A stretch of DNA of 34,465 bases, taken from the IMG/VR virus record IMGVR_UViG_3300047300_000218, positions 1-34,465 of that record. One strand, written 5' to 3'. Position numbers and translations under genes: made by a program. The notes beneath the pieces are model-generated. The model worked only from the letters and a program-made list of their open reading frames with translations, was not told the origin of the DNA and ran no database searches. This document shows, piece after piece, positions 6,432-33,741 of this stretch; position 1 is the stretch's first letter, and every line of letters starts with the position of its first letter. Source of the DNA: a virus.

Positions 6432-6459
6432 GCCTCGGGGGGAAACCCTCGGGGCTTTT
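6432..6459 (+). terminator. Hairpin with GAAA loop and T-run after the capsid gene
   Basis: GCCTCGGGGG (6432-6441), GAAA loop, CCCTCGGGGC (6446-6455): a 10-bp stem with two G-U pairs, followed by TTTT. It begins 12 bases after the capsid stop. It may partly terminate transcription, or stabilise the capsid mRNA 3' end, so that capsid is made in excess. Its right arm lies just before the next start codon (6464), so it could also mask that gene's ribosome-binding site. Confidence 0.65.
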
Positions 6460-21695: not shown

Positions 21696-21728
21696 ACAAT
21701 TCCTTTGTTTCGGAACCTTTATTGTCAA

Positions 21729-21747: not shown

Positions 21748-21764
21748 ATTAGTGAAAACCCTTA
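21748..21764 (-). promoter_or_regulatory. Dispersed 17-bp motif, copy 1
   Basis: Reads TAAGGGTTTTCACTAAT on the - strand, directly beside the TGCAAA-N6-TTTGCA repeat in the divergent control region, upstream of the ERF/SSB operon. It matches copy 4 in 15 of 17 positions. Confidence 0.6.
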
Positions 21765-21783
21765 GAGACAGCAGTTTTTTTTC

Positions 21784-21800
21784 TGATAATCTTGCATTCA
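21784..21800 (+). promoter_or_regulatory. Candidate -10 box placing transcription start at the start codon
   Basis: GATAAT at 21784-21789 lies only 10 bases before ATG 21800, and no ribosome-binding sequence separates them. A -35 half match (TTAGAG, 21762-21767) sits 16 bp upstream. A transcript from here would begin within about four bases of the ATG, making it leaderless, as lambda cI mRNA is from PRM. Inference from spacing only. Confidence 0.35.
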
Positions 21801-21997
21801 TGAACAAATACGACAAAGCAGAAGCCGAGGCCAGTGACGCATTGCTTGACCATGCGGTTTCACTAGTCAGCAGCTATGTTGAACATCCTGGCGACACTGA
21901 AGCGGCCTTAAAAGCCCTTTTGATCGTCACTCTTGAACAAATTTACCAAAGGAGAATTTACATTGAGCAAATCACTAGCAAAGCAATGGTATCTTGA
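21800..21997 (+). CDS. Small helical protein, first gene of the rightward early operon
   Basis: 65 aa: MNKYDKAEAEASDALLDHAV, SLVSSYVEHPGDTEAALKAL, LIVTLEQIYQRRIYIEQITS, KAMVS. Predominantly helical with no recognisable motif. The longer frame back to 21722 runs through the control region and is rejected. No ribosome-binding site is visible, but a GATAAT box lies 10 bases upstream, so it may be translated from a leaderless mRNA. It overlaps the next gene (TTG 21963) by 35 nt. Position suggests an early regulator; unproven. Confidence 0.5.
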   Translation: MNKYDKAEAEASDALLDHAVSLVSSYVEHPGDTEAALKALLIVTLEQIYQRRIYIEQITSKAMVS

Positions 21998-22370
21998 GCA
22001 GCTTCGCACAAAGCCTGCACATCATCGCGCCATTGCTAATCGTATGTCTAGCCGATTCAATCTGAGTGCTGGCATGATTAAAGACGAGCTACTGGCTGAG
22101 GGTTACATCAAGCTGGACAAAGTTGTCCGCATGGGCGAAACACAAAAGAACAATCATTTCTATGTGTTGACTGGAAAACAGTACAAAGACCATGAACCTG
22201 TTGTCGTGAAGCATATTGACGAGTTTTGGCCTTGCGGGACAAAGAAATCCACAGGCAATGCGTTTGACTTGTCACGTTCAAAAGGCTTGTTCTCAATCCG
22301 TGAGTTGTCAAACATGACCAACAAGGGTCGTCCGAACAATTTTCCAGTCATTGCGTATTCGAGGGCTTGA
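21963..22370 (+). CDS. Putative DNA-binding protein (winged-helix-like)
   Basis: 135 aa from a TTG start at 21963, with GGAG at 21951-21954 and 8-nt spacing. The N-terminal part (LEQLRTKPAHHRAIANRMSS, RFNLSAGMIKDELLAEGYIK, then LDKVVRMGETQKNNHFYVLT) has the order of a winged helix: helix, recognition helix, then a strand pair ending in a reader-type wing. The C-terminal part (FWPCGTKKSTGNAFDLSRSK, GLFSIRELSNMTNKG) is unknown. Placed at the start of the rightward early operon, it is a candidate regulator. The fold is inferred by eye. Confidence 0.55.
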   Translation: MSKSLAKQWYLEQLRTKPAHHRAIANRMSSRFNLSAGMIKDELLAEGYIKLDKVVRMGETQKNNHFYVLTGKQYKDHEPVVVKHIDEFWPCGTKKSTGNAFDLSRSKGLFSIRELSNMTNKGRPNNFPVIAYSRA

Positions 22371-22372
22371 AC

Positions 22373-22591
22373 ATGGGAAAAGGCAGCGCACCTCGTCCTT
22401 ACTCTGTTTCCGCAGAGGATTTCTCGTCCCGTTGGGATGCTATTTTTTCAAAGAAGGGTATTCAAAATGATGATGTTCAAAAAGAAACCAGTGGGCCAAA
22501 TGGCGCGCCTGAAGTTGCTTCTGAGCAAGAGCGATGGAACGACAGCAGCGGAAATCGCACGCTACCTTCCGACGACAAGCCCTCACAGTAA
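22373..22591 (+). CDS. MGKGSAPRP-type small conserved phage protein
   Basis: 72 aa. MGKGSAPRPYSVSAEDFSSR followed by WDAIFSKK is a very common opening of short proteins in proteobacterial prophages; function unknown. Such proteins usually end soon after WDAIFxKK. Here the frame runs on for about 44 residues through the start of the next gene, giving a hydrophilic, low-complexity tail. GAGG at 22361-22364 supports ATG 22373. It overlaps the next gene out of frame by about 125 nt. Confidence 0.65.
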   Translation: MGKGSAPRPYSVSAEDFSSRWDAIFSKKGIQNDDVQKETSGPNGAPEVASEQERWNDSSGNRTLPSDDKPSQ

Positions 22592-22691
22592 GCTGGCTAG
22601 ATTGGAGCGCGATCACCTTTGGACTGTGTTGCGAAAAGACAACGGTGATGGGACAAAGCGTTACTTTGGCAAACCGCCAAAGGACGCATAA
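22467..22691 (+). CDS. Small winged-helix DNA-binding protein
   Basis: 74 aa (ATG triplet at 22467, 22470, 22473; exact start uncertain). QMARLKLLLSKSDGTTAAEI, ARYLPTTSPHSKLARLERDH, LWTVLRKDNGDGTKRYFGKP reads as helix-turn-helix plus wing: helix, T-T-A-A-E-I turn, recognition helix, and a strand pair with GDGTKRYF. Likely an early transcription regulator. AAGG lies about 10 bases upstream. Its first half overlaps the preceding gene in another frame. The stop overlaps the next ATG (TAATG). Confidence 0.7.
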   Translation: MMMFKKKPVGQMARLKLLLSKSDGTTAAEIARYLPTTSPHSKLARLERDHLWTVLRKDNGDGTKRYFGKPPKDA

Positions 22692-22816
22692 TGGAAACGT
22701 GGCAACTGTGTCTCTTGCTGTTGGCAATCATTGAATCACCAAAGTTGTCAGACCATGATCGCAGTGGTCTTTTTTGGTGGATTCTTTCTATTGGTGTTGT
22801 TGCATATTTTTTCTGA
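22691..22816 (+). CDS. 41-aa membrane peptide
   Basis: METWQLCLLLLAIIESPKLS, DHDRSGLFWWILSIGVVAYF, F. Two hydrophobic stretches around a polar SPKLSDHDRSG turn: a possible hairpin membrane protein. The TAATG overlap with the preceding gene supports translation. Function unknown. Its 3' end contains the -35 region of the candidate promoter for the next unit. Confidence 0.5.
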   Translation: METWQLCLLLLAIIESPKLSDHDRSGLFWWILSIGVVAYFF

Positions 22817-22829
22817 TTGCTGGTACAAT
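22800..22829 (+). promoter_or_regulatory. Candidate promoter with extended -10
   Basis: TTGCAT (22800-22805), 18-bp spacer, TACAAT (22824-22829) preceded by TG at 22821-22822. Transcription would start near 22836, leaving a leader of about 100 nt before the HNH-like gene at 22937. Confidence 0.55.
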
Positions 22830-22846
22830 GATCTGAAACCCGGATA

Positions 22847-22918
22847 GGACGGACTAATTACCCGTCTGAAAAGCGCACCCACCTCGCCTTCCGTTGGTTT
22901 CTTCTAAGGTGGCTTTTT
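22847..22918 (+). promoter_or_regulatory. Structured leader with terminator-like end
   Basis: First hairpin GGACGG/CCGTCT (22847-22852 with 22862-22867). Then CCACCT (22879-22884) can pair with AGGTGG (22907-22912), followed by CTTTTTG. The competing pairing CGCCTT/AAGGTG (22885-22890 with 22906-22911) excludes the second one. It looks like an attenuated leader, or a small RNA of roughly 85 nt started by the promoter at 22800. The 120-bp stretch shows no gene. Confidence 0.4.
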
Positions 22919-22936
22919 GTTAATAAGGTGCGGCAT

Positions 22937-23326
22937 ATGGCTAAAAAAAGCTATTCCGAAAAATTGCTAGATCCTCGCTGGCAGCAGATGCGTCTTCGTG
23001 TGTTTGAACGCGACAAATGGAAGTGCGTGATATGTGGAGATGCTAAAAAAACACTTCACGCTCATCATCCTGTTTACCATCCAATGTCAGATGGCCCTTG
23101 GGATTATGAGGACGAACAAATTATTACTCTTTGCAAAGATTGTCATGACAATGAACATGATGCTCTTGATATTGCAAAGGCAAATTTATTACTTGCTGTT
23201 TTGAAACTTGGAGTTAAAACTTCTTCTGATATGGAAGTTTTTGTAGACTATCTTTCCATACTTGATATGGAAAGTTTGGAAAAATTCTTTATTTGGATGA
23301 ATCATGGCACGAATAAGAACAATTAA
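22937..23326 (+). CDS. HNH-like zinc-binding protein
   Basis: 129 aa. PRWQQMRLRVFERDKWKCVI (CxxC with ICGD), LHAHHPVYHP, then DEQIITLCKDCHDNEHD: two CxxC knuckles around an AHH core, the layout of HNH nucleases. The second CxxC-H resembles the N/H part of the motif. The C-terminal helical part (AKANLLLAVLKLGVKTSSDM) is specific. It could be a DNA nuclease acting in replication or packaging, or a structural zinc protein. AAGGTG at 22925-22930 supports ATG 22937. The 3' end overlaps the O-like gene by 23 nt. Confidence 0.7.
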   Translation: MAKKSYSEKLLDPRWQQMRLRVFERDKWKCVICGDAKKTLHAHHPVYHPMSDGPWDYEDEQIITLCKDCHDNEHDALDIAKANLLLAVLKLGVKTSSDMEVFVDYLSILDMESLEKFFIWMNHGTNKNN

Positions 23327-24128
23327 GCCAGAATTTTTCCGACACGAAGGGCTTTATGAGGCTGAAGTCAAGACAAAACTTCCTTTAAGAATTGCATTTG
23401 CTGGTTTATGGACTGCGTGTGATCGTGAAGGGCGTTTTAAATGGAAGCCAAGAGCATTAAAGCTAGATGTTCTTCCATACGACGACATTGATTTTTCACG
23501 CGTGCTTTACGCGTTGGTCACGCATGGATTTATCGTCAAATATGAGTTTGATGGTGATGAATATGGTTGTATTCCATCATGGAACAATCATCAGGTTATA
23601 AATAACAGAGAAAGCGCATCAACCTTGCCAAGTCTCGAAGAATCAACAACTTGCACGCATGAACCACGCGTTGATGACGCGTCAATCACGCCTCTTGTGC
23701 ATACTCAAGTGGAAGGGAAGGGAAGGGAAGGGAAAAGGAAGGGGAATAAGGAAAGCGCGATTGTTACGCGTCCTGACTTTGTTGATGAACAACTTTGGAA
23801 TGATTGGCTTATTATTCGTAAAAAGAAAAACGCACCTTTGACAACAACAGCATGGGCATTGATGACAAACGAGGCGGGAAAGGCTGGATGGCCGATTGAC
23901 AAAGCAATTGAGGAATGTTGCCTTAGAACGTGGTCGTCATTTAAAGCTGAGTGGGTTGCTGACAAGCAAAATCAGACAGAGACTGTCTACCAGCGTTCTA
24001 TGCGCTTGAAGATGCAGGAGGCCGTGCCAAGCATTGCAAAGCAATCTCCAGAACCTTACCAGGATGCCTCGGACTTTTTCAGGACGATTGATATGCAGAC
24101 TCAGAAAGTTATCGGGGTGGACAAATGA
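23304..24128 (+). CDS. Replication initiation protein, lambda O-like
   Basis: 274 aa. The N-terminal domain (MARIRTIKPEFFRHEGLYEA, LPLRIAFAGLWTACDREGRF, KWKPRALKLDVLPYDDIDFS) is a winged-helix replication domain widespread in phages. The middle (about 110-155) is low in structure and rich in Lys/Gly/Glu. The C-terminal part (DFVDEQLWNDWLIIRKKKNA, LTTTAWALMTNEAGKAGW) resembles phage O/DnaT-type ends. The coding sequence contains two phased 11-bp repeat arrays and a G4 motif, echoing the lambda origin that lies within gene O. Overlaps the next, P-like gene by 4 nt. Confidence 0.8.
   Translation: MARIRTIKPEFFRHEGLYEAEVKTKLPLRIAFAGLWTACDREGRFKWKPRALKLDVLPYDDIDFSRVLYALVTHGFIVKYEFDGDEYGCIPSWNNHQVINNRESASTLPSLEESTTCTHEPRVDDASITPLVHTQVEGKGREGKRKGNKESAIVTRPDFVDEQLWNDWLIIRKKKNAPLTTTAWALMTNEAGKAGWPIDKAIEECCLRTWSSFKAEWVADKQNQTETVYQRSMRLKMQEAVPSIAKQSPEPYQDASDFFRTIDMQTQKVIGVDK
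23497..23529. repeat. Iteron-like block I (three 11-bp repeats)
   Basis: CACGCGTGCTT, TACGCGTTGGT, CACGCATGGAT follow each other with an exact 11-bp period, about one helical turn, so a bound protein would see all three on one face. Located inside the O-like gene. Origin function is an inference. Confidence 0.6.
23654..23697. repeat. Iteron-like block II (four 11-bp repeats)
   Basis: CACGCATGAAC, CACGCGTTGAT, GACGCGTCAAT, CACGCCTCTTG at 23654, 23665, 23676 and 23687. A single further copy (TACGCGTCCTG) is at 23765. Between the two blocks lies an A+T-rich segment with TTATAAATAA (23596-23605), a possible unwinding site. Confidence 0.6.
23715..23732 (+). other. G-quadruplex motif in a purine tract
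   Basis: GGGAAGGGAAGGGAAGGG: four runs of three G separated by two-base loops, within an almost pure purine stretch (about 23710-23755). It codes for a Gly/Lys/Glu/Arg-rich linker (EGKGREGKRKG). It lies 18 bp after iteron block II. Such a motif could pause DNA synthesis or keep strands apart at an origin. Confidence 0.7.
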
Positions 24129-24463
24129 GCTTGCCAATGCCTTGGATTGAACGAATTTTCACAAAGCTGACCATGATCTATGGCCGTGACTTCATTGGCC
24201 GCTGGGAAGGCTTGAACATTGAAGAAGTAAAGATTGATTGGGCGCATGAGCTGGCTGGCTTTAAAGACCATCCTGACTCAATTGCATACGCTTTGAAAAA
24301 TATGCCTGATTCTGGAAAGCCGCCGACAGTATTGGAGTTTCGAGCGATGTGCAGAAAAGCACCTGATCCAACTGTGCCAATGCTTGAAAACAAGTTGACG
24401 CAAGAGCAAATGGCAGCAAACAAAAAGCGAATTGCTGAACTGATCGCAAAGGTGAATAAATGA
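24125..24463 (+). CDS. Replication protein P-like
   Basis: 112 aa. Follows the O-like gene with 4-nt overlap, in the place of lambda P, the helicase loader. The pattern WIERIFTKLTMIYGRDFIGR, WAHELAGFKDHPDSIAYALK, SGKPPTVLEFRAMCRKAP is that of a short P-like family in betaproteobacterial phages, where a helical domain ends in PPxxxEFRxxCR. It is much shorter than lambda P (233 aa) and has no ATPase motif, so it may recruit the host helicase directly. Function inferred by position and pattern. Confidence 0.6.
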   Translation: MSLPMPWIERIFTKLTMIYGRDFIGRWEGLNIEEVKIDWAHELAGFKDHPDSIAYALKNMPDSGKPPTVLEFRAMCRKAPDPTVPMLENKLTQEQMAANKKRIAELIAKVNK

Positions 24464-24651
24464 CCCGCACCTACGCCCTAAAACGCCTACTAGAGCACGG
24501 CGCACTGACAAGCAAAGAGATGGAAATCATCACTGGCTGGACAAGCAAGCAAGTCTGGTCAACGATCACAGCTTTGCAAAAGACAAACATCATCCGCAAG
24601 CTGCCAAAGATGACATGGGGGCTGACTGATATGAATCCAATGCCGTACTAA
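24460..24651 (+). CDS. Small HTH protein
   Basis: 63 aa. ALKRLLEHGALTSKEMEIIT, GWTSKQVWSTITALQKTNII, RKLPKMTWGLTDM is a compact winged helix: helix 1, a turn G-A-L-T-S-K-E, recognition helix GWTSKQVWSTITAL, and a short wing. Same fold as many phage transcription regulators and origin-associated proteins. ATGA overlap with the P-like gene suggests a replication or regulatory link. Confidence 0.65.
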   Translation: MTRTYALKRLLEHGALTSKEMEIITGWTSKQVWSTITALQKTNIIRKLPKMTWGLTDMNPMPY

Positions 24652-24660
24652 GGAGATAAC

Positions 24661-24864
24661 ATGAAATGGAAAATTAAAACAGGGCAACATTACAAAATTG
24701 GCAACATTAGGAAAAGAAGAATTTTTGCATGGAAGAAAACAAAAGTTGGAGAGCATTGGGTTTGGCTTGAGTCTTATCAAGTCACTGAAAGATTTTTCAT
24801 GAGCGTAAATGGACAATGCTGGTGGACTGAAGAATCACGAGAAACACTTGATTGTTATTGCTAA
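24661..24864 (+). CDS. Small basic, Trp-rich protein, unknown
   Basis: 67 aa, MKWKIKTGQHYKIGNIRKRR, IFAWKKTKVGEHWVWLESYQ, VTERFFMSVNGQCWWTEESR, ETLDCYC. Very basic first half, acidic Cys-containing end, seven Trp. No family recognised. It has a strong ribosome-binding site (AAGGAGATAAC), unlike most overlapped neighbours, so it is probably well expressed. A+T-rich compared with flanking genes, which may mark a later acquisition. Confidence 0.65.
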   Translation: MKWKIKTGQHYKIGNIRKRRIFAWKKTKVGEHWVWLESYQVTERFFMSVNGQCWWTEESRETLDCYC

Positions 24865-24873
24865 GGAGAGAAC

Positions 24874-25164
24874 ATGAAACGTGAAGACATCATTCGACTT
24901 GCAAAAGACGCTGGATTGTTTGTGGCGTATGACTCTGAAGGCCAGTTTTCAGCCGTTACAGACGAAGAAATCCATGACCTGCATCCTGACCCTAACAAAG
25001 AGCGAGATCGCATCTATCGTGAGCAACGTCTTGTTGAAATCTTGACTCCATTTGCTCAGCTTATCGCTTCTTCCACGCGTGAGGAGTGTGCAAAGGTATG
25101 CGAGGCCTATCTTGTGCCAGGAATTGCAAACGAAATGGCAAGAGTTATCAGGGCAAGGAACTAA
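24874..25164 (+). CDS. Accessory protein of the EREACAKVCE family, copy 1
   Basis: 96 aa. MKREDIIRLAKDAGLFVAYD at the start and STREECAKVCEAYLV...MARVIRARN at the end. The N-terminal KREDIIRLAKDAG and C-terminal xREECAKVCE...IRAR segments recur in the products at 29563 and 29862. The family is frequent in aquatic betaproteobacterial phages; the two Cys spaced CxxxC in a helix might bind metal. Function unknown. AAGGAGAGAAC precedes the start. The stop codon overlaps motif copy 2. Confidence 0.7.
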   Translation: MKREDIIRLAKDAGLFVAYDSEGQFSAVTDEEIHDLHPDPNKERDRIYREQRLVEILTPFAQLIASSTREECAKVCEAYLVPGIANEMARVIRARN

Positions 25165-25178
25165 GGGTTTTCCACAAT
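25162..25178 (+). promoter_or_regulatory. Dispersed 17-bp motif, copy 2
   Basis: TAAGGGTTTTCCACAAT begins with the stop codon of the preceding gene and ends inside the ATG of the next one (25177). Its AAGGG may double as ribosome-binding site here. Confidence 0.5.
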
Positions 25179-25389
25179 GTCTTACAGCCGTAAAACAATA
25201 GAAAATCAAAGCGACAGATACCAGATCGAGTTGGGCGAAGCTAGGGTTCTTTACTGCACCTATGTGATGACGGGGAAAAGCGTACTCACACGGGATCGAA
25301 TGGAGTATCTGGAAAAGCGATTTGGTCGAGGGTCTGTTGAGCGGATCAGGTCTTACATGAACAAACTACGAACAGGAGAATTGGAATGA
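25177..25389 (+). CDS. Small conserved protein (DUF7696-like), unknown
   Basis: 70 aa: MSYSRKTIENQSDRYQIELG, EARVLYCTYVMTGKSVLTRD, RMEYLEKRFGRGSVERIRSY, MNKLRTGELE. The layout (an acidic helix with a YQxELGEARxxYC segment, then RxEYLEKxxGRxxxERIR) is that of short proteins in Burkholderiales prophages. I recall the name DUF7696, tentatively. Helical, no catalytic motif. The stop overlaps the next start by 4 nt. Confidence 0.6.
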   Translation: MSYSRKTIENQSDRYQIELGEARVLYCTYVMTGKSVLTRDRMEYLEKRFGRGSVERIRSYMNKLRTGELE

Positions 25390-25610
25390 GTAAAGAAACA
25401 GGAGGCCCAGCGTTTCCTATCCAAGGCCATAGCACACGCAATGGACAAGGATTCCAGCTTGTTATGGCTGATGGTATGTCGATCAGGGACTACTTCGCGG
25501 CCAAAGCGATGCAGTCTTTTCTCACTGCGGATGGGACAACTTATTTCGATAACCGAGCCAAAGCAGCCTACGAAATGGCAGACACCATGCTGAAAGCGAG
25601 GGAGGCATGA
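25386..25610 (+). CDS. TGGPAFP-type small conserved protein
   Basis: 74 aa. TGGPAFPIQGHSTRNGQGFQ, then DGMSIRDYFAAKAMQSFLTA, then AAYEMADTMLKAREA. This family is widespread in prophages (GGPAFP...GMxLRDYFAAxAM...YxxADxML). It is of unknown function and usually sits among ninX-like accessory genes. ATGA overlaps on both sides place it in a tightly coupled operon leading to rusA. Confidence 0.75.
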   Translation: MSKETGGPAFPIQGHSTRNGQGFQLVMADGMSIRDYFAAKAMQSFLTADGTTYFDNRAKAAYEMADTMLKAREA

Positions 25611-25816
25611 GCCAGGGCGATATGTGGCAAACCAAAGATGGCCGCAAAGGCTTGGAAGTCCGCAGGAACGACAAACAGTTGTTGCTGTCTTTGATGCGCG
25701 ATGATTGGCCGTGGCCTGACTTTCCGCAATGGTTTGATCGAGCTGACTGCGTGAAGTTGCCTAGTCGGTATCACGGCAATCAAGTGCTGGAAGAAGCTGG
25801 CGAGGCATTGCTGTAA
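25607..25816 (+). CDS. Small protein before rusA, unknown
   Basis: 69 aa: MSQGDMWQTKDGRKGLEVRR, NDKQLLLSLMRDDWPWPDFP, QWFDRADCVKLPSRYHGNQV, LEEAGEALL. It looks like a small beta domain with a short acidic end (WPWPDFPQWF); no family recognised. Coupled to both neighbours (ATGA at its start, TAATG at its end). Confidence 0.6.
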   Translation: MSQGDMWQTKDGRKGLEVRRNDKQLLLSLMRDDWPWPDFPQWFDRADCVKLPSRYHGNQVLEEAGEALL

Positions 25817-26226
25817 TGTTTCAACTGATTTTCAGCGTTGAAGGCGATCCAGTTGGAAAGCAACGGCCACGCTTTGCAAAAGGCAGGACGTACACGCCCA
25901 AAAAAACGGTTGATTACGAGAACAAGATCAAAGCGCAAGCAATGAGCGCAATGGGAAGCGCAGAGCCACTAGAAACGCCTGTGGCCGTGTATTTGTACGT
26001 GAACCATGCAGTACCAGCGTCATACAGCAAAAAGCGCCGTGAGGCTTGTTTGAATCGCTTAGAGCGACCAAAGAAACCTGACTTGGATAATTGCGCAAAA
26101 GCCTATCTTGATGCAATGAACGGTATTGTTTACAAGGATGATGTCCAGGTAGTGAGTCTGCACATTACCAAGCGATACGACACCATTGCCGGCGTTCATG
26201 TTTGCGTGCGCGAGGAGCTGGAGTGA
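25816..26226 (+). CDS. rusA: RusA-family Holliday junction resolvase
   Basis: 136 aa. Cuts Holliday junctions formed by recombination. FSVEGDPVGKQRPRFAKGRT and RPKKPDLDNCAKAYLDAMNG, IVYKDDVQVVSL show the RusA catalytic acidic residues (Asp89, Asp91, and the Asp108/109 pair) and the conserved K-P-D-L-D-N motif. Length agrees with E. coli RusA (120 aa). Pairs functionally with the ERF and NinB recombination proteins. Its TGA overlaps the GTG start of ninB. Confidence 0.92.
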   Translation: MFQLIFSVEGDPVGKQRPRFAKGRTYTPKKTVDYENKIKAQAMSAMGSAEPLETPVAVYLYVNHAVPASYSKKRREACLNRLERPKKPDLDNCAKAYLDAMNGIVYKDDVQVVSLHITKRYDTIAGVHVCVREELE

Positions 26227-26630: not shown

Positions 26631-26959
26631 TGTTCCCAAAGCACAAATATGTCAGAAGCAAAAAGCTACTTGAAGCCGCAAGAGAGATCCCATGCCAGTG
26701 GTGTGGCGCTGATGATGGCACTGTTGTGGCCGCGCATTCCAATTCATTGATGCATGGCAAGGGACGTGGAATAAAAGCAGACGACAACATGATCGCAAGT
26801 CTTTGCTACTTTTGTCATGCAGAGTGCGATTCTGGAAAGATGATGACAAAAGGCGAACGCCAGGGGATGTGGCGTACAGCTCACGAACGCACGGTTGATA
26901 AGCTGACCGAGATGGGGCTATGGCCTGACGATGTGCCAAAACCTAGGGGTTTTTACTGA
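26627..26959 (+). CDS. DUF1364 (YbcO-like) putative nuclease
   Basis: 110 aa. RSKKLLEAAREIPCQWCGAD, DGTVVAAHSNSLMHGKGRGI, KADDNMIASLCYFCHAECDS is the DUF1364 signature: CxxC, A-H-S-N, GKGxGIKADD, CxxCH. YbcO of a cryptic lambdoid prophage has this HNH-related zinc fold, and it replaces Rap/NinG-type recombination nucleases in some phages. Starts with a double ATG overlapping the ninB stop. Its end carries motif copy 3 and two overlapping hairpins. Confidence 0.85.
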   Translation: MMFPKHKYVRSKKLLEAAREIPCQWCGADDGTVVAAHSNSLMHGKGRGIKADDNMIASLCYFCHAECDSGKMMTKGERQGMWRTAHERTVDKLTEMGLWPDDVPKPRGFY

Positions 26960-26968
26960 TGTAAAAAC
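26938..26968 (+). promoter_or_regulatory. Two overlapping, mutually exclusive hairpins before the ParB-like gene
   Basis: AAAACC-TAGG-GGTTTT (26938-26953) and GTTTTTAC-TGAT-GTAAAAAC (26949-26968) share the GGTTTT part, so only one can form. The second encloses the stop codon of the DUF1364 gene. A 47-bp A+T-rich leader to ATG 27007 follows. Possibly an RNA switch or processing site; could also be chance within motif copy 3. Confidence 0.4.
26944..26960 (+). promoter_or_regulatory. Dispersed 17-bp motif, copy 3
   Basis: TAGGGGTTTTTACTGAT, the most diverged copy, overlapping the last codons of the DUF1364 gene and lying 47 bp before the ParB-like gene. Followed by GTAAAAAC, comparable to GTAATTTT after copy 5. 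Confidence 0.45.
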
Positions 26969-27006
26969 TCAAGAAATTGTAGAAAATAAAAGCCTAAGGA
27001 GTGTTT

Positions 27007-27696
27007 ATGACCAATGATCTTTTTTCAAAACCAAACGTAGTTGAGCAAGCAATAACAATATTTGCTTCGCTTGAGTCTATGGAGCTTCAGGAAAAAATTG
27101 AAGCTATCAACTTAATCCGTGAGGCGTTGCTAGTCCATTCTCCATTTAAGAATGAGCCTGTGGATTGCGTGCGCTGGATCAAGTCTGATCTAGTCAACGC
27201 CAACGACTACAACCCAAACAGCGTTGCGCCACCAGAAATGAAGTTGCTTGAGCACTCAATCACTGAAGATGGCTATACGCAACCAATCGTTTCTTGGAGT
27301 CGTGATGGAATCTTTGAGGTTGTTGATGGATTTCACCGCCATCGTGTCGGAAAAGAATCTCCAACTGTAAGAGCGCGTGTTCATGGCTATCTGCCTGCTG
27401 TTGTCATTAACAGCAATCGTCAAGAAAAGAATGATCGCATGGCTTCAACAATTCGCCACAATCGCGCCCGTGGCGAGCATAAAGTTGAATCAATGTCTGA
27501 AATTGTTGTTGAGCTAAAGCGCCGTTTTTGGTCTGATGAAAAAATTGCTAAAGAACTTGGAATGGAAGCTGATGAAGTTTTGAGGCTTCAGCAAGTAACT
27601 GGGCTTTCTGGACTGTTTGCAGACGCTGATTTTTCAGAGGCTTGGGAGGCTGAGACATTTGAAGAAGTAGAGGGCGTTGATGAACCGCTTTCTTGA
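27007..27696 (+). CDS. ParB-like (IbrB-type) protein
   Basis: 229 aa; ATG 27007 with AAGGAG at 26996-27001. Helical N-terminal part (about 1-50), then a ParB/sulfiredoxin-type domain: VNANDYNPNSVAPPEMKLLE, HSITEDGYTQPIVSWSRDGI, FEVVDGFHRHRVGKES with the D-G-F-H-R motif. Next is NRQEKNDRMASTIRHNRARG, then a helix-turn-helix-like segment (VVELKRRFWSDEKIAKELGM). It matches IbrB, the partner of IbrA; both are known as activators of immunoglobulin-binding genes in E. coli. An in-frame GTG two codons upstream is unlikely. Overlaps the next gene by 17 nt. Confidence 0.8.
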   Translation: MTNDLFSKPNVVEQAITIFASLESMELQEKIEAINLIREALLVHSPFKNEPVDCVRWIKSDLVNANDYNPNSVAPPEMKLLEHSITEDGYTQPIVSWSRDGIFEVVDGFHRHRVGKESPTVRARVHGYLPAVVINSNRQEKNDRMASTIRHNRARGEHKVESMSEIVVELKRRFWSDEKIAKELGMEADEVLRLQQVTGLSGLFADADFSEAWEAETFEEVEGVDEPLS

Positions 27697-28057
27697 TCTA
27701 TTTGAAAAGTGGCATCCATACTGGAATTGGGAGTGCTTCAAAAATGGAATGTGGGAAAAAAGAAAAAATGATATGAACAAAATTCAAATGTGCGCTCAAG
27801 TTCTTTCAAATGAAGGCCAATGCAAACTTGCAATGATTGGCGCTGTAAACAAGTTCCCAATCAGTGCGGAGCAACATCTGACAAAGCCAATGGGTAAACG
27901 CCCTTGGATTGGTCAAGCGGCCTGTTGCTATCAAGTTGGGGCGACAGAGGAAGAAACCAGGATCGCTTGGAATTTCTATATGACACCAGAATCTCAAGCA
28001 ATGGCAAACCGCGTTGCTGATGAAGTAATTGAAATGTGGGAGAAAGGCAATGCCTAA
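27680..28057 (+). CDS. Middle gene of the ParB/PAPS-reductase cassette, unknown
   Basis: 125 aa. A Trp-rich N-terminus (MNRFLDLFEKWHPYWNWECF), then NKIQMCAQVLSNEGQCKLAM, GKRPWIGQAACCYQVGATEE and ETRIAWNFYMTPESQAMANR. The RPWIGQAACCYxxGAxEExTRxAW part looks conserved and may bind metal or nucleotide through its CC pair. I know no function. Its overlaps of 17 nt and 8 nt with the flanking ParB-like and PAPS-reductase-like genes suggest that the three work as a unit. Confidence 0.65.
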   Translation: MNRFLDLFEKWHPYWNWECFKNGMWEKRKNDMNKIQMCAQVLSNEGQCKLAMIGAVNKFPISAEQHLTKPMGKRPWIGQAACCYQVGATEEETRIAWNFYMTPESQAMANRVADEVIEMWEKGNA

Positions 28058-29273
28058 GCGTGGACTTGGAATCAATGTTCTTCAAGCCGCACAGCAGCGC
28101 ATTGAATGGACTTTCGACAACTTTGACAAAATTTATTGCAGCTTTTCAGCAGGAAAAGATAGTGGCGTGATGGTTCATCTTGTCTGCGAAGAAGCGAAAA
28201 AACGTGGACGCAAGATTGGTCTGTTTTTCCTTGACTGGGAAGCGCAATTCTATTTGACTATTGATTTTGCAGAGCAAATCTATGCAGAATACGCAGATAA
28301 CATTGAACCGTATTGGGTTGCAGTGCCAATCAAAACATGGAATGCTTGCTCTACTCATGAGCCTGAATGGACTGCATGGGATGAACAAAAAAAGAATCTA
28401 TGGGCGCGTCAAAAATCAGAGGTCAGCATCAAAGATGGATCACACTTCCCATTTTGGTATGAAGGAATCATGTTTGAGGAATTTGTGCCTACGTTTGGTC
28501 AGTGGTATGCACAAGGCGAGAAATGCGCCTGCTTTGTTGGCATCCGAGCACAAGAGAGTTTGAATCGATTTCGGTCTATCAGTCGTAACAAGCCAACTTA
28601 CGATGGGAAGATGTACACGACAAACGTGGTTGAAAATGTTTGGAATGTGTACCCGATCTATGATTGGAAAGTGGAAGACATCTGGACATTTCATGCAAAG
28701 ACTGGAAAGAGTCACAACAAATTGTATGACCGTATGCACCAGGCTGGAATGAAGCTAAGTCAAATGCGTATTTGTGAGCCAATGGGTGACGAGTCTCGCA
28801 AAGGTCTGTGGCTGTATCAAGTTGTTGAGCCAAGTCTTTGGGCAAAATTAGTCTTGCGTGTTAATGGCGCAAACACTGGAAAAATGTATAGCAATGAACG
28901 TGGAAACGTGATGGGGAATCACACAATCACATTGCCAAAAGGACATACGTGGGAAAGTTTTGCAAAAAGTCTGTTGTCGAGTACTCCACCAAAGACAGCC
29001 CAGCACTATAAAAACAAAATTGCTGTTTACATCAAGTGGTGGACTTCGCGTGGTTATCCTGATGGCATACCTGATGAGGCAGACTTGAAGATTGAAAACG
29101 CAGGCAAAGCACCGAGCTGGAGGCGCATTTGTAAAACATTGCTTCGCAATGACTACTGGTGTAAGTATCTGGGTTTTAGCCCAACAAAAACAAGCGCATA
29201 CAAAAAGTATGAAGACCTGATGAAGCGCCGCCGTATTGCCTGGAACATCTTTGCTGATGAACTAAAGTCGTAA
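28050..29273 (+). CDS. PAPS-reductase-like protein (IbrA type, DUF3440)
   Basis: 407 aa. The N-terminal half is an adenine-nucleotide alpha hydrolase/PAPS reductase fold: IYCSFSAGKDSGVMVHLVCE has the PP-loop S-x-G-K-D-S (about residues 33-39), GLFFLDWEAQFYLTIDFAEQ follows, and CFVGIRAQESLNRFR is the second nucleotide site. The C-terminal half is DUF3440 (TLPKGHTWESFAKSLLSSTP...). The pair with the ParB-like gene is the IbrA/IbrB pair. PP-loop relatives include DndC of the DNA phosphorothioation system, so nucleic-acid thiolation or adenylation chemistry is conceivable. The rest of the Dnd genes are absent. ATG 28050 follows AAAGG. Confidence 0.85.
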   Translation: MPKRGLGINVLQAAQQRIEWTFDNFDKIYCSFSAGKDSGVMVHLVCEEAKKRGRKIGLFFLDWEAQFYLTIDFAEQIYAEYADNIEPYWVAVPIKTWNACSTHEPEWTAWDEQKKNLWARQKSEVSIKDGSHFPFWYEGIMFEEFVPTFGQWYAQGEKCACFVGIRAQESLNRFRSISRNKPTYDGKMYTTNVVENVWNVYPIYDWKVEDIWTFHAKTGKSHNKLYDRMHQAGMKLSQMRICEPMGDESRKGLWLYQVVEPSLWAKLVLRVNGANTGKMYSNERGNVMGNHTITLPKGHTWESFAKSLLSSTPPKTAQHYKNKIAVYIKWWTSRGYPDGIPDEADLKIENAGKAPSWRRICKTLLRNDYWCKYLGFSPTKTSAYKKYEDLMKRRRIAWNIFADELKS

Positions 29274-29287
29274 GGGTTTTTCCTAAT
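29271..29287 (+). promoter_or_regulatory. Dispersed 17-bp motif, copy 4
   Basis: TAAGGGTTTTTCCTAAT starts with the stop codon of the PAPS-reductase-like gene. Together with copy 3 it brackets the three-gene cassette (26944 and 29271), in the same orientation. The 66-bp gap that follows leads to the gene at 29340. Confidence 0.6.
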
Positions 29288-29339
29288 ACTAATCTCACAA
29301 AAGATGATTGACAATAAGTCATCGCAACCAAGGAACTGT

Positions 29340-29573
29340 ATGAAACAATTTGAATACACCACAACACTGAACGGCGGCATCGTTACCGTCTATCTTGCTG
29401 TCACCGAAACTGATGACGAGTGCGGAACTCATTGCTTCACTGACTTTGACAGCGTTTGGTTTGACGGAACAAACATCACATCAATCCTGACAAAAGAACA
29501 GATTGCCGAGCTTGAAATAGAAGCTGAGGCAGGATTCTTTGAATCTGGATGGGAGAGCGCAAATGGCTATTGA
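29340..29573 (+). CDS. Small acidic protein, unknown
   Basis: 77 aa: MKQFEYTTTLNGGIVTVYLA, VTETDDECGTHCFTDFDSVW, FDGTNITSILTKEQIAELEI, EAEAGFFESGWESANGY. Small beta domain with an acidic helix at the end; resembles short DNA-mimic-like phage proteins in charge but no family is recognised. ATG 29340 is chosen because AAGGAACTGT precedes it; the longer frame to 29304 runs through the intergenic region. Overlaps the next gene by 11 nt. Confidence 0.65.
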   Translation: MKQFEYTTTLNGGIVTVYLAVTETDDECGTHCFTDFDSVWFDGTNITSILTKEQIAELEIEAEAGFFESGWESANGY

Positions 29574-29865
29574 TCGTGAACAAATCATTGAAATGGCGCG
29601 GAAGTCTGGCGCTGGTGTATTGACAAGCGCAATGCCACTTGAGCATCCTTGGGTGTTTTTGCCTGTTGAACTTGAACGCTTCGCCGCCCTTGTCGCTGCT
29701 GCCGAGCGCAAGCGGTCCGAGCAAGAGATGGCCATGATGTCGGAGCACTGTGCCGAGCAGATTCTCATGGAGCGCGAGGCGTGTGCGAAGGTGTGTGAAG
29801 ACGATTTTGGCAACGGTGCTTTGAATCTCGCAGCCGCCATCCGAGCACGAGGAGAAACCAAATGA
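29563..29865 (+). CDS. Accessory protein of the EREACAKVCE family, copy 2
   Basis: 100 aa. MAIDREQIIEMARKSGAGVL at the start, LERFAALVAAAERKRSEQEM in the middle, MEREACAKVCEDDFGNGALN, LAAAIRARG at the end. It is mostly one long helix, probably a coiled coil, with the CAKVC pair and the IRAR end shared with the products at 24874 and 29862. ATG 29563 is preceded by GGGAG; the longer frame back to 29539 lies inside the preceding gene. Function unknown. Confidence 0.7.
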   Translation: MAIDREQIIEMARKSGAGVLTSAMPLEHPWVFLPVELERFAALVAAAERKRSEQEMAMMSEHCAEQILMEREACAKVCEDDFGNGALNLAAAIRARGETK

Positions 29866-30149
29866 ATACTAAGCCAAACGCAATCCACTTTTATAGCAAT
29901 GGCGCATACGTGGAAATCATGCGTATGTCTCCTGAAGGAATATGGGCTAATCCAGATGTTCCAGTGGATGGCATTGCAAAGCAGGTTTTGGAAGCTCTTG
30001 ATTCAAATATCAAGTTAATGGTGCAACGTGCTGTTGAAAACGAGCGTGAGGCGTGTGCGAAGCTGTGTGAAACAGAGTGGTCAAACGTAGCTGAACGAAT
30101 GTACGGCGAGGAATGCGCCGCCACCATCCGAGCAAGGAACAACACATGA
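29862..30149 (+). CDS. Accessory protein of the EREACAKVCE family, copy 3
   Basis: 95 aa. A different N-terminal part (MNTKPNAIHFYSNGAYVEIM, RMSPEGIWANPDVPVDGIAK, QVLEALD) is joined to the shared helix ENEREACAKLCETEWSNVAE, RMYGEECAATIRARN. The N-terminal segment recalls a small beta domain (I-H-F-Y...GIWANPD) of other phage proteins. So the same C-terminal module is attached to different heads within one operon. 4-nt overlaps on both sides. Confidence 0.7.
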   Translation: MNTKPNAIHFYSNGAYVEIMRMSPEGIWANPDVPVDGIAKQVLEALDSNIKLMVQRAVENEREACAKLCETEWSNVAERMYGEECAATIRARNNT

Positions 30150-30280
30150 ACGACTTATTTAAGCCGCATCAATGCCCATGTTGTTTTGGGCTGTTTAAGG
30201 TAGGCGACAGGTTTTGGAATGACTCTGGAACTGTTTATCACTGGATGTGCTGGGCAAATAAATCAAAGGAAACCAAATGA
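30146..30280 (+). CDS. 44-aa zinc-ribbon-like peptide
   Basis: MNDLFKPHQCPCCFGLFKVG, DRFWNDSGTVYHWMCWANKS, KETK. The cysteines (CPCC near residue 10, C35) and His residues suggest a small metal site. It fits exactly between neighbours with ATGA overlaps at both ends, which makes translation likely. Function unknown. Confidence 0.6.
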   Translation: MNDLFKPHQCPCCFGLFKVGDRFWNDSGTVYHWMCWANKSKETK

Positions 30281-30489
30281 CAAAACAACCAGAGGCTTTG
30301 CTGTTGGCTGACTCGCTGAAAAACTGCACAAGCATCGTAGGAGCATCCCGCATGGAAAACGAACTCCGCCGCCTGCACGAAGTAAACCAAGAGTTGCTGG
30401 AGGCTTTGAAGTTCATTCGCAATTCAGGATATATGCCGCAAGCGTTGATTGAGCATATTGATGCCATCGCCAAAGGAGAACAACCATGA
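30277..30489 (+). CDS. Small coiled-coil accessory protein
   Basis: 70 aa: PEALLLADSLKNCTSIVGAS, RMENELRRLHEVNQELLEAL, KFIRNSGYMPQALIEHIDAI. The heptad-like ENELRRLHEVNQELLEAL is a frequent element in short accessory proteins of Burkholderiales phages. Likely a dimerising helix; no function known. ATGA overlaps on both sides. Confidence 0.65.
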   Translation: MTKQPEALLLADSLKNCTSIVGASRMENELRRLHEVNQELLEALKFIRNSGYMPQALIEHIDAIAKGEQP

Positions 30490-30836
30490 CTGACAAAGAA
30501 CTGCTAGAGCTGGCTGCGAAGGCGGCTGGGATTGAAGTTTACGAAAGCACAGACGGAACACTTCAGAATCGACCTGTATTGGTTTTCACTGCCGGAGGAG
30601 GCATGGGGACGATGCCATATGAAGAGCGTTGGAATCCTTTGGCGTACGACGCTCAGGCGCTTAGGTTGGCTGTGAAGTTGGGTCTTGATGTTTTGCGTGG
30701 CTCAGAAATGGTTGTCGCTGAGACCGAGAAGCCCAAAGAAGTGGGTTGCGTAGAGCTGTTTTCAGGAGACCCCTACGCCGCCACCCGCCGCGCCATCGTG
30801 CGTGCTGCCGCTGAAATTGGAAAGGCCATGAAATGA
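30486..30836 (+). CDS. Conserved accessory protein, unknown
   Basis: 116 aa. MTDKELLELAAKAAGIEVYE, then WNPLAYDAQALRLAVKLGLD and DPYAATRRAIVRAAAEIGKA. This WNPLxxDxxALRLAxxL...DPYAATRRAIVRAAAEIG pattern is common in proteobacterial phage accessory operons. Relatives are annotated only as hypothetical. The C-terminal part is a helix with alternating Ala/Arg. Starts and ends in 4-nt overlaps. Confidence 0.7.
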   Translation: MTDKELLELAAKAAGIEVYESTDGTLQNRPVLVFTAGGGMGTMPYEERWNPLAYDAQALRLAVKLGLDVLRGSEMVVAETEKPKEVGCVELFSGDPYAATRRAIVRAAAEIGKAMK

Positions 30837-30952
30837 CTGACGAATTTGCAGTGGCCGCATTGCTCTTATTCATTGCTGGCATTGCAGTAATTGAACATCA
30901 GCCGATCTTGGCATTTGTGCTGGCTATGCTGGCGATTGGAGTATTGAAATGA
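30833..30952 (+). CDS. 39-aa two-helix membrane peptide
   Basis: MTDEFAVAALLLFIAGIAVI, EHQPILAFVLAMLAIGVLK. Two hydrophobic helices around an E-H-Q-P turn, so probably a membrane hairpin. ATGA overlap with both neighbours supports it. Function unknown; may modify the host membrane or be a superinfection factor (speculative). Confidence 0.55.
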   Translation: MTDEFAVAALLLFIAGIAVIEHQPILAFVLAMLAIGVLK

Positions 30953-31560
30953 CTGACAAGAAAACAGAGGCTTTTTTTACTTATGCACATTTTCGGTCTG
31001 ACGATTTAAAACTCTTTTATATCGGCAAAGGCAAGCGAGACCGGATTGTGAGCAAAGCAAATCGCAATCAATACTGGCATAACACTGTTACAAAACACGG
31101 TTTAAAAATTGAACGGCTGGCAAAATGGAAAACCGAACAGGAGGCGATAGCTCATGAGCGCTTTTTGATCTGGTGCCTTAGGGATATGGGCGTGAATCTA
31201 GTCAACATGACCGATGGTGGGGAAGGGCTTGCAAACCCATCAGAAGAAACTAGGCGAAAACTGTCTGCAAACAATCCAATGAAACGCCCAGAGATAGCCG
31301 CAAAAAACACAGCACTTCGTATTGGCGGTAAGTTGCCTCCGGTTACTGATGATGCGAAAAGAAAAATGTCAGCAGCAGCAAAAGGACGAGTGTTTTCTGA
31401 GCAGCACAAGGCAAACATATCTGCTGCAAGGAAAGGCATGGTGTTCAGTGACGAGCATAAAAAGAAATTAGCAGAATCTGCAACAGGAAGAAAATTTTCT
31501 GATGAACGCAGAAGAAAACTATCAGAAGTCACAAAAAGGAGATGGGCAAATGTTAAATAA
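30949..31560 (+). CDS. GIY-YIG homing endonuclease with NUMOD3 repeats
   Basis: 203 aa. The N-terminal GIY-YIG-type domain is variant: FFTYAHFRSDDLKLFYIGKG (Y...FYIGKG), with R at KRDRIV and a catalytic Glu in AIAHERFLIW. It is followed by four or five NUMOD3-type DNA-binding units: SEETRRKLSANNPMKRP, TDDAKRKMSAAAKGR, SEQHKANISAARKG, SDEHKKKLAESATGR, SDERRRKLSEVTKRRW. It cuts intron-less target alleles and spreads itself. Free-standing, not inside an intron. Lies between small accessory genes in the operon. Confidence 0.88.
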   Translation: MTDKKTEAFFTYAHFRSDDLKLFYIGKGKRDRIVSKANRNQYWHNTVTKHGLKIERLAKWKTEQEAIAHERFLIWCLRDMGVNLVNMTDGGEGLANPSEETRRKLSANNPMKRPEIAAKNTALRIGGKLPPVTDDAKRKMSAAAKGRVFSEQHKANISAARKGMVFSDEHKKKLAESATGRKFSDERRRKLSEVTKRRWANVK

Positions 31561-31879
31561 ACAAACAAAAGCATTGCGACTGGCGCTGGATGCGATCTGC
31601 GGAAGCGGGGATTTCCTGTTTAACTGGCACGAGTGCGAACCCAACAACGAGAGAGAAATGCAGCGATACCAAGAAACGCTAGAGGCCAACGAAAAGGCTT
31701 TCAATGCCATTCGCGAAGTACTTGCCGAGCAGCCAGCTATTAAGCAAGACTTAACACCTGAGCAGCCAGCACAGCAGCAGGAGCCTTTGTTTAAACCATT
31801 GATTGACAGCCTTCCCGGACTAGCCGAGGAACTTAAAGCAATGGACGTTGCACAGCCGCAGCAGGAGTCAAGCAAATGA
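31550..31879 (+). CDS. Small accessory protein, Gln/Pro-rich end
   Basis: 109 aa. MLNKQTKALRLALDAICGSG, DFLFNWHECEPNNEREMQRY, QETLEANEKAFNAIREVLAE, then a flexible Gln/Glu/Pro stretch (EQPAQQQEPLF). The start has AGGAG at 31537-31541 inside the endonuclease gene; the longer frame back to 31502 is rejected. A helical domain in front, low complexity behind; related short proteins occur in Burkholderiales phages. Function unknown. Confidence 0.6.
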   Translation: MLNKQTKALRLALDAICGSGDFLFNWHECEPNNEREMQRYQETLEANEKAFNAIREVLAEQPAIKQDLTPEQPAQQQEPLFKPLIDSLPGLAEELKAMDVAQPQQESSK

Positions 31880-32400
31880 ATCAGCAAGAACTCAAGACGC
31901 TATTGCACTACGACCCACCAACTGGTGTGTTCCGCTGGCGTCATGCGCCTAAGCGTGGGATGCAGCCTTGGGATGTGGCTGGAAGCGCAGAGCGTGGGTA
32001 CATCCGAATTCAAGTTAGAGGCAAGTTGCACCGGGCGCACCGTTTGGCTTGGCTGTATGTGCATGGTGAATGGCCGAGCAGTGAGCTTGATCACATCAAC
32101 CGCAATCGGGCTGACAACAGGATCAACAACCTGCGACTTGCTGATAGGTCACTGAATATGCAGAACGGCGGCAAACGCTCTGACAATGTTAGCGGATTTG
32201 TCGGAGTATCAATAAGCAAATGGGCGAAGCGATGGCAGGCGCAAATCAAGACGAACGGAAAAAGTGTTCATCTCGGCTATTTTGATAGTCCAGAGTTGGC
32301 GCATGAGGCGTATCTTTCCGCAAAGGCTGAATACCATGTCCGAGCTATCGAAGCCGCCCACGGAATTACAGGAGAACAAAATGCAACTGGAGGTTTTTGA
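31876..32400 (+). CDS. HNH homing endonuclease with AP2 domain
   Basis: 174 aa. The N-terminal part (LKTLLHYDPPTGVFRWRHAP) and RAHRLAWLYVHGEWPSSELD, HINRNRADNRINNLRLADRS, LNMQN are the HNH core (H-R-L-A-W, L-D-H-I-N, N-x-x-x-N-L-R). The C-terminal part (SGFVGVSISKWAKRWQAQIK, GYFDSPELAHEAYLSAKAEY) is an AP2-type DNA-binding domain. Free-standing homing nuclease, the second in this operon. Starts by 4-nt overlap; its end overlaps the next gene by 20 nt. Confidence 0.9.
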   Translation: MNQQELKTLLHYDPPTGVFRWRHAPKRGMQPWDVAGSAERGYIRIQVRGKLHRAHRLAWLYVHGEWPSSELDHINRNRADNRINNLRLADRSLNMQNGGKRSDNVSGFVGVSISKWAKRWQAQIKTNGKSVHLGYFDSPELAHEAYLSAKAEYHVRAIEAAHGITGEQNATGGF

Positions 32401-32629
32401 TGTTTTCTCTATCTTTATTTCGGGCCTCACGATCGGACTCATCGGAGCGCACTACGTCAACAAACACGAACTCAAACTCGCATACAACCGAGGAGTCATG
32501 GATGCACTCTGGGAGGTCTATCTCATCGGGATGCGACAGCACCTTGGTGGCGTGCTCGGCGCTTCCAGAGACGAAGCGACTGGTTGTGAAACAGGCAATC
32601 AAAAGACTGTTTGGAAAAGGTCACTTTGA
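32381..32629 (+). CDS. Small membrane-anchored protein
   Basis: 82 aa. The start (ATG 32381, AGGAGAACAAA upstream) gives MQLEVFDVFSIFISGLTIGL, IGAHYVNKHELKLAYNRGVM, DALWEVYLIGMRQHLGGVLG. One N-terminal membrane segment, then a helix. The last 20 residues (ASRDEATGCETGNQKTVWKR...) look random and coincide with the start of the next gene in another frame. An extension after loss of an earlier stop is therefore possible. Function unknown. Confidence 0.55.
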   Translation: MQLEVFDVFSIFISGLTIGLIGAHYVNKHELKLAYNRGVMDALWEVYLIGMRQHLGGVLGASRDEATGCETGNQKTVWKRSL

Positions 32630-32837
32630 CATTTGCATTGTGCGTGAAGTCTCTGAAATTGTTGGCGCTCGACGTGGCGGCGATGCTTATAAGATGTTGC
32701 GTGCCTTGCACTGCGTTGACTATGCCAGCATGGAGCCTGAGCTGCGTGCAAGGTTGCCTGAGTTGGTGAATGAATGCCTGCGCCAGCAAGACAACGTAAT
32801 TGAAGCCACAGAAGTGGCACTAAAAGGAATCGTATGA
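32586..32837 (+). CDS. Small conserved protein, unknown
   Basis: 83 aa from GTG 32586: MKQAIKRLFGKGHFDICIVR, EVSEIVGARRGGDAYKMLRA, LHCVDYASMEPELRARLPEL, VNECLRQ. The LHCVDYxxMxPELRxRLPELVNECL pattern is familiar from lambda-like prophages, where such proteins sit shortly before the late regulator. The longer frame to 32397 is Ser/Thr-rich nonsense and is rejected. It has no strong ribosome-binding site and overlaps the previous gene by 44 nt. Confidence 0.65.
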   Translation: MKQAIKRLFGKGHFDICIVREVSEIVGARRGGDAYKMLRALHCVDYASMEPELRARLPELVNECLRQQDNVIEATEVALKGIV

Positions 32838-32965
32838 AATGCTGCAACAACCAATGCCGCCAGGGCAGAGACTGTCCAAACCGTGAGGTTTATCGAAACA
32901 TTGCCTTAGGATTGCTGTCGTTCTGGATAACTCTAATCTGTGTTCTTGTGTGGTTTTTTAAATGA
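32834..32965 (+). CDS. 43-aa Cys-rich membrane peptide
   Basis: MKCCNNQCRQGRDCPNREVY, RNIALGLLSFWITLICVLVW, FFK. Head with C-C-x3-C-x5-C (CCNNQCRQGRDCP), then one membrane helix. Peptides of the type CxxxCxQGRxCP plus membrane helix are frequent in prophages. AAAAGGAATCGT precedes the start; 4-nt overlaps link it to both neighbours. Function unknown. Confidence 0.65.
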   Translation: MKCCNNQCRQGRDCPNREVYRNIALGLLSFWITLICVLVWFFK

Positions 32966-33423
32966 GAAAAAAGTCAAAATATAAACCAAAAGGCGTAAGA
33001 ATTGACGCATTGAACTGGGTATTGTCTGGCATGAAGCCGATCGCACAAGTTGGTGATGCCCTTGTCACGCTGAACGCAAAGAACTACGCTGCACTGGATG
33101 AAATCAAGAATGGGCGATCAACGTCTGATCATGTTGACGTAATCATTGCCGCCGTGAACATGGCTGAGGCGTTTGCCAGAAAAGGCGTTGGATCAGACTG
33201 GATCGAAGAAATCAGACAAGCCCAAGACGCTGTTTACACAATGGCAAAGCGTGGACTGTCTAAAGGTCGATTCTTGTTTACTGGCCCTGAGATGCAGGCC
33301 GTATCACTGGCGATGGAAGTTCATGCCGCCCAGCTTGAAGCCAGCTCAGTGAAAGACATGGAAGACTGCCTGAAAGTCGTTGAAGACGAAATCAGGCATA
33401 AGAGAGCAAGACGGATTCAGTAA
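32962..33423 (+). CDS. Conserved phage protein at the late-regulator position, unknown
   Basis: 153 aa. RKKSKYKPKGVRIDALNWVL, SGMKPIAQVGDALVTLNAKN, then IIAAVNMAEAFARKGVGSDW, GLSKGRFLFTGPEMQAVSLA and MEVHAAQLEASSVKDMEDCL. A helical, basic-ended family well represented in betaproteobacterial prophages. It is the last gene of the rightward early operon, where lambda keeps the antiterminator Q, so a late-gene regulatory role is a possibility. No DNA-binding motif was recognised. The 3' end overlaps the convergent gene by 7 nt. Confidence 0.7.
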   Translation: MRKKSKYKPKGVRIDALNWVLSGMKPIAQVGDALVTLNAKNYAALDEIKNGRSTSDHVDVIIAAVNMAEAFARKGVGSDWIEEIRQAQDAVYTMAKRGLSKGRFLFTGPEMQAVSLAMEVHAAQLEASSVKDMEDCLKVVEDEIRHKRARRIQ

Positions 33424-33512
33424 AAGAGAACGTCAAAGTATGCAAGGGCAAATCCACAAAGGACGAGGCCCAAGCCGACTGCCAATGTAATGTCTGCGAT
33501 GATTGCTTTCAT
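33417..33512 (-). CDS. 31-aa membrane peptide
   Basis: MKAIIADITLAVGLGLVLCG, FALAYFDVLFY: a single hydrophobic helix. A strong ribosome-binding site (AGGAGTTCACC) precedes the ATG. The stop overlaps the 3' end of the opposite gene. Second of two short - strand genes with nearly identical translation starts. Function unknown; too short for homology judgement by eye. Confidence 0.6.
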   Translation of the reverse strand: MKAIIADITLAVGLGLVLCGFALAYFDVLFY

Positions 33513-33524
33513 GGTGAACTCCTA

Positions 33525-33671
33525 TTAGGCTTTGATGAATTTGTTGAATGCGTTGACATAGCCAATGGCTTCTTCTTCAGTGCTGAAGAACATCTCATTT
33601 GGCAAGTCTTCAAAGACCAGCATCGCAAACACGCCGCCGCAAGCCTGTGTAATTTTCTCAATTGTCATCAT
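33525..33671 (-). CDS. 48-aa small protein
   Basis: MMTIEKITQACGGVFAMLVF, EDLPNEMFFSTEEEAIGYVN, AFNKFIKA. A small beta-alpha protein by pattern (VFAMLVFEDL, then FFSTEEEAIGYVNAF). Ribosome-binding site AGGAGTTCACA is the same ten bases as for the following gene at 33512. A candidate - strand promoter lies 35-65 bp upstream. The segment FSTEEEAIGYV is typical of short phage accessory proteins. Function unknown. Confidence 0.65.
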   Translation of the reverse strand: MMTIEKITQACGGVFAMLVFEDLPNEMFFSTEEEAIGYVNAFNKFIKA

Positions 33672-33705
33672 TGTGAACTCCTGTTGTTGATGGCTCTATT
33701 GTCTA

Positions 33706-33734
33706 GTTATCAACAAAAAATTACATTAGGACAA
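33706..33734 (-). promoter_or_regulatory. Candidate promoter for the two short - strand genes
   Basis: On the - strand TTGTCC (33734-33729), 17-bp spacer, GATAAC (33711-33706). The -35 lies inside motif copy 5. Confidence 0.45.
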
Positions 33735-33741
33735 ACCCTAA
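33725..33741 (-). promoter_or_regulatory. Dispersed 17-bp motif, copy 5
   Basis: TTAGGGTTTGTCCTAAT on the - strand, between the divergent starts of the short - strand genes and the gpZ-like gene. It adjoins the -35 of the + strand candidate promoter and contains that of the - strand one. Confidence 0.6.

Follow-up and report, generated by a model that had tools for sequence, protein, structure and literature searches.

What is the role of a 17-bp sequence that recurs at five gene borders of a phage genome? The window analysed here, meaning the whole stretch of DNA, is an IMG/VR record of 34,465 bases in which terminase, portal, capsid and tail genes lie on the plus strand, with a leftward MazG/SSB/Gam/Erf operon and a rightward replication and accessory region in the same genome. 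By a simple gene call, some 5% of the window is non-coding DNA (7% in the early region), and a megablast search of the window against named phages gave no match. The five copies pointed out in an earlier note, made from the sequence alone, were all confirmed in sequence, position and strand. The motif is a 16-bp near-perfect dyad, with the halves TTAGGGTT and TNYCCTAA, plus a T; four copies, rather than the three reported, are followed by GT. When up to three mismatches were allowed, the window held six matches, compared with an average of 0.23 and at most 2 in 100 shuffles, and the backward pattern, used as a control, gave none. The sixth match (11364-11380, three mismatches), at the start of a tail-region gene, was treated as chance. 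A literature search found no description of the exact box sequence and, as the window contains no tRNA, a tRNA-associated site was dropped as a reading of the box.

The surroundings of the copies resemble those of promoters. The earlier note saw -10-like sequences after several of them; in fact all five are followed by a sigma70-like hexamer, GACAAT or GAAAAT, which is read in the direction of its own box and starts 21 or 22 bases after the 17-mer (Table 1). Because this spacing had first been spotted by eye, it was then tested on sites in contigs that had been retrieved solely by protein similarity. This gave 29 distinct sites with no more than one mismatch, the window's own among them, at which gaps of 5 to 40 were examined; a strong -10 was found at gap 21 in nine sites and at gap 22 in 11 (together 20 of 29), and at any other gap in no more than two. 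A joint test of box and -10 retained 86 distinct boxes from the whole set of fetched phage loci, a number that describes the boxes and is no proof of spacing, since the test accepts gaps of 20-22 only. Matches to TTGACA at a spacer of 16-18 are weak (mean 3.2 of 6, vs 2.6 in shuffles), so that the -35 is poor. As the -10 sits 21-22 bases after the box, the centre of the dyad lies about 42 bp before the expected start. With the start site deduced from the -10, the dyad is predicted to stand in place of the -35 box and at the position of a class II activator (near -41.5). Class II activator promoters include those bound by CRP at -41.5, by lambda CI at PRM and by Mu Mor near -43. The promoters described here resemble these in the dyad centre near -42, the presence of a -10 and the poor -35, but differ from all three in the sequence of the box.

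Table 1. Boxes, associated -10 elements and micro-operon ORFs in the window; promoter assignments are predictions.
Feature	Position	Strand	Remarks
Box TAAGGGTTTTCACTAAT	21748-21764	-	Putative activator-type site; centre of the candidate divergent early promoter pair
-10 GACAAT	21721-21726	-	Predicted promoter of the leftward Erf/Gam/SSB/MazG operon; 21 nt after box
-10 GATAAT	21785-21790	+	Predicted rightward promoter; 20 nt from the other side of the 21748 box
Box TAAGGGTTTTCCACAAT	25162-25178	+	Overlaps the ATG of gene 25177-25389
-10-like GAAAAT	25201-25206	+	22 nt after the 25162 box, within gene 25177
Box TAGGGGTTTTTACTGAT	26944-26960	+	Precedes the ParB-like/PAPS-reductase-like pair; equivalent in L008 at 3037
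-10-like GAAAAT	26982-26987	+	21 nt after the 26944 box
Box TAAGGGTTTTTCCTAAT	29271-29287	+	Behind the PAPS reductase stop codon; equivalent in L166 at 5380
-10 GACAAT	29310-29315	+	22 nt after the 29271 box
Box TTAGGGTTTGTCCTAAT	33725-33741	-	Leftward micro-operon, running against the flanking genes
-10 GACAAT	33698-33703	-	21 nt after the 33725 box
48-aa ORF	33525-33671	-	Cargo position; varies between relatives
31-aa membrane-like microprotein MKAIIADITLAVGLGLVLCGFALAYFDVLFY	33417-33512	-	Conserved

The copy at 21748 lies between the two arms of the early region. The GATAAT on its opposite side is found at the same 20-nt distance in the relative L235, and GTAAT variants occupy that side in four others (L279, L313, L320, L329), whereas a rightward -10-like element is absent from four of the 11 loci compared. 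With -10-like elements on both of its sides, a single dyad seems to be used for two divergent early promoters. The first rightward gene begins with an ATG at 21800, about 9 nt after its -10, and the arrangement looks similar in several relatives, which suggests that the rightward early transcript is probably leaderless or nearly so. The box at 25162 overlaps the start of gene 25177-25389, so that, if this start is correctly assigned, its promoter would drive the genes farther downstream; the relative L313 has a box in a similar place, at 6436. The genes at 27007-29273 (plus strand) comprise a ParB-like gene, a 126-aa gene and a PAPS-reductase/DUF3440 gene and form an IbrB/IbrA-like pair of a kind that is common in phages. 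It had been proposed that the motif coordinates the accessory genes. It does precede accessory genes, but the core early operons, Erf/Gam/SSB leftward and replication rightward, are headed by it as well.

The box is conserved well beyond the window. In the closest relative, IMGVR 3300046355_000163, it lies before the ParB-like gene, after the PAPS reductase gene, before the Erf operon and on the micro-operon, and in the complete named phage MW202710.1 it occurs at the divergent early region and after the recombination genes. Eighty contigs encoding a homologue of the protein at 32962-33423 were used as a conservation sample; boxes with the correct -10 are present in the majority of the closest 30 or so, while those farther away have none or have drifted variants such as ATAGGGTTTGTCC.. 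in its place. This 153-aa protein, which closes the early operon on the plus strand, is the most widely shared protein among the motif phages, and its location is reminiscent of late regulators. When viral contigs were scanned for the box followed by ACAAT at gaps of 19-25, 45 stretches were returned; gaps 21-23 were the most frequent, with 32 of the 46 matches, and some of the others, especially at gaps 19, 24 and 25, are coding repeats or chance matches. Scanned over whole contigs, most of these phages have at least two copies, against none for the backward control. The same promoter is present in a group of phages (G003, G016, G039) which encode a sigma-70-like protein and a D5-type primase and have essentially no protein in common with the window. 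Some phages of this group carry tandem boxes; in L277, L230 and L267, which belong to the sigma-bearing group, these have TTTGCAAA-like spacers and stand before a -10-like TATATT. Tandem arrays with a period of about 23 bp occur in L237 and L210. Relatives have the motif at corresponding gene borders, the copies point towards the gene that follows, and the distance to the -10 is fixed; all of this favours the proposal of the earlier note that the motif is the binding site of one regulator, of phage or host, or a promoter element.

Whether such a regulator could belong to the host was examined in bacterial genomes. A first scan of all genomes placed the box near chance level, and in an order-wide scan of 399 genomes the perfect palindrome occurred only four times, exact boxes being rare in the order; these scans spoke against a host box, and scans at the level of the family reversed that view. 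The host set comprised 401 genomes of Burkholderiaceae, the family of a Comamonadaceae bin. In these genomes the pattern AGGGTTTNYCCTA-N19..28-ANAAT gave 21 matches against none backward. A near-identical box, TWAGGGTTTNYCCTAR, is strongly enriched in the family: the 16-mer without a -10 gave 97 matches in 79 genomes vs 37 backward, of which 34 came from one repeat-rich genome, leaving three if that genome is set aside. The same 16-mer pattern gave eight matches vs about 39 backward in 198 genomes of Flavobacteriales, and the enrichment is therefore a trait of the lineage and no general property of hairpin-like words. This is at odds with the suggestion that the element is specific to phages.

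Most of the 21 host matches lie about 65-180 nt upstream of start codons, often those of transport or catabolic genes. Seven have the gap seen in phages, and their genes include TRAP DctQ (two genomes), a family 3 solute-binding protein, a CoxS-like 2Fe-2S subunit (two genomes) and a ferredoxin-type protein; matches at other gaps include TctC and acetyl-CoA hydrolase, and DctP genes with a box were found in two further genomes without the spacing test. The letters of the box differ somewhat, CCTAAT being favoured in phages and CCTAG in hosts. Among host sites that had not been picked by their -10, only four of 32 have a strong hexamer at gap 22. Many of the 97 host 16-mers lack promoter spacing and stand close to where a GNAT-like gene begins. 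In hosts the box may therefore be another site than in phages, or one with two roles; judged from these positions, the host element may act in several ways or comprise two related sites. In the Burkholderiaceae GNAT-like gene (L413, L422, L423, L430, L431 and others), CTAGGGAAAACCCTTA is found about 10-25 nt before the start codon, and this holds for many genomes. A response regulator as the partner of the host sites was considered and rejected; the kinases nearby vary, and no regulator was found that the sites share. Regarding the hosts themselves, contigs of motif phages fall in betaproteobacterial bins and distant homologues of one protein occur in seven of 251 genomes, which hints that the phages may infect Burkholderiaceae.

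These observations are most readily accommodated if the box is the activator site of a regulator encoded by a Burkholderiaceae host and used by unrelated phages for early and middle promoters, a reading to which we assign a probability of roughly 0.55. Each copy would form the upstream half of a promoter, to be followed by the -10 hexamer and no good -35, and a dimeric transcription factor on the dyad would act as a class II activator, turning on early and middle operons through contact with RNA polymerase, with a single dimer at 21748 serving both divergent early promoters. An immediate early promoter must be read by proteins already present in the cell. Protein clustering detected no regulator common to motif phages across unrelated groups. 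Because the box lies in the first divergent promoters and is shared by phages without a common regulator, a dimeric activator present before infection is the simplest model. We infer that a protein binds the box, that it activates transcription and that it originates from the host, most likely a member of the Burkholderiaceae, in which a similar box and spacing precede transport and catabolic genes. Somewhat short of an even chance, in our estimate, is the more specific proposal that at least two phage lineages, which have no early genes in common, have captured an undescribed transport or catabolic activator of this family as a master switch of early promoters, one dimer for two divergent promoters, and that this activator ties phage expression to the carbon or energy state of the host.

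The main rival, which we regard as unlikely, is that a regulator encoded by the phage itself binds the box and activates middle genes; candidates would be, for example, the small winged-helix-like early proteins at 21963-22370 and 22437-22691 or the ParB-like protein at 27007-27696. Such a regulator would account for the clustering of boxes in early regions, for letters that drift by phage clade, as with a co-evolving regulator, and for the low yield of perfect sites in order-wide host scans, and boxes flank the ParB-like/PAPS-reductase pair in the window as well as in L008 and L166. However, relatives of that pair without a box are common, which led us to reject it as the regulator, and the G003, G016 and G039 group has the box and, in the parts examined, none of the candidate genes. 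A phage protein is also difficult to reconcile with a box in the first divergent promoters, ahead of any phage protein synthesis, and with the enrichment in Burkholderiaceae genomes.

A site for a repressor, either CI/Cro-like or of the host, that covers the -35 region in the manner of lambda-type immunity or of dispersed phage operators seems improbable. Dyads of 16-17 bp have the size of lambda operators, tandem arrays such as those with the 23-bp period would suit a repressor, and a Cro-like gene lies beside a box in G006, but no CI-like repressor or integrase, and no cognate repressor of a lambda/P22-type operator, was found among the window proteins scanned, which took in only part of the small ORFs. 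Moreover, these promoters lack a good -35 for a repressor to cover and would therefore be weak on their own, and the narrow spacing of 21-22 fits an activator, whereas repressor sites may lie anywhere over a promoter. Least probable by far is a recombination or replication element, or an RNA hairpin, unconnected with transcription initiation. Although a short hairpin can be drawn from the dyad, which occurs in tandem in some phages, such an element would leave the strand-specific, tightly spaced -10 and the orientation towards gene starts without a reason; no T-run follows the dyad, and in a promoter the box would lie upstream of the transcript.

Among known systems, the nearest described situation to a host-encoded activator acting on phage promoters is that of the lytic cyanophage S-PM2d, in which host Pho boxes (PhoB/PhoR) occur in phage promoters, the protein is known and binding has been shown (PMC10976474). 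In both cases sites of a host type precede several phage genes, and here too the box is found before host genes, albeit with CCTAG there against CCTAAT in phages; unlike the Pho boxes, the present element has a fixed place in its promoters, is shared by unrelated phages and would drive core early operons. The stoperators of cluster A mycobacteriophages are likewise short sites dispersed over a phage genome at gene borders, but they are asymmetric and have no promoter attached, and through the phage repressor bound to them they halt elongation (PMC6550527, PMC9283540), whereas the box is a dyad coupled to a -10, and no Gp71-like repressor was seen in the window. The ACTU motif of CrbR is a 17-bp inverted repeat which activates acetate and catabolic genes (PMC5715377); its identity with the box was rejected because the sequence differs (for example TACTACCATCGTCGAAT).

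The box makes it possible to map promoters by sequence in a large group of uncultured freshwater phages. It is also a marker that may help to assign hosts to them, and it could serve as bait for an apparently undescribed transport or catabolic regulator in Burkholderiaceae. If the protein is that of the host, the success of infection would hang on the nutritional state of the cell. The map also brings out the easily overlooked minus-strand micro-operon headed by the copy at 33725, which sits between the early region and a minor tail gene. A homologue of its microprotein lies behind a box in at least 16 relatives (all 16 of those listed), often with a variable small ORF in front, and the strongly conserved part of the 31-aa peptide reads ..ETIADITLAVGLGLVLCCFALAYFDVLTY.
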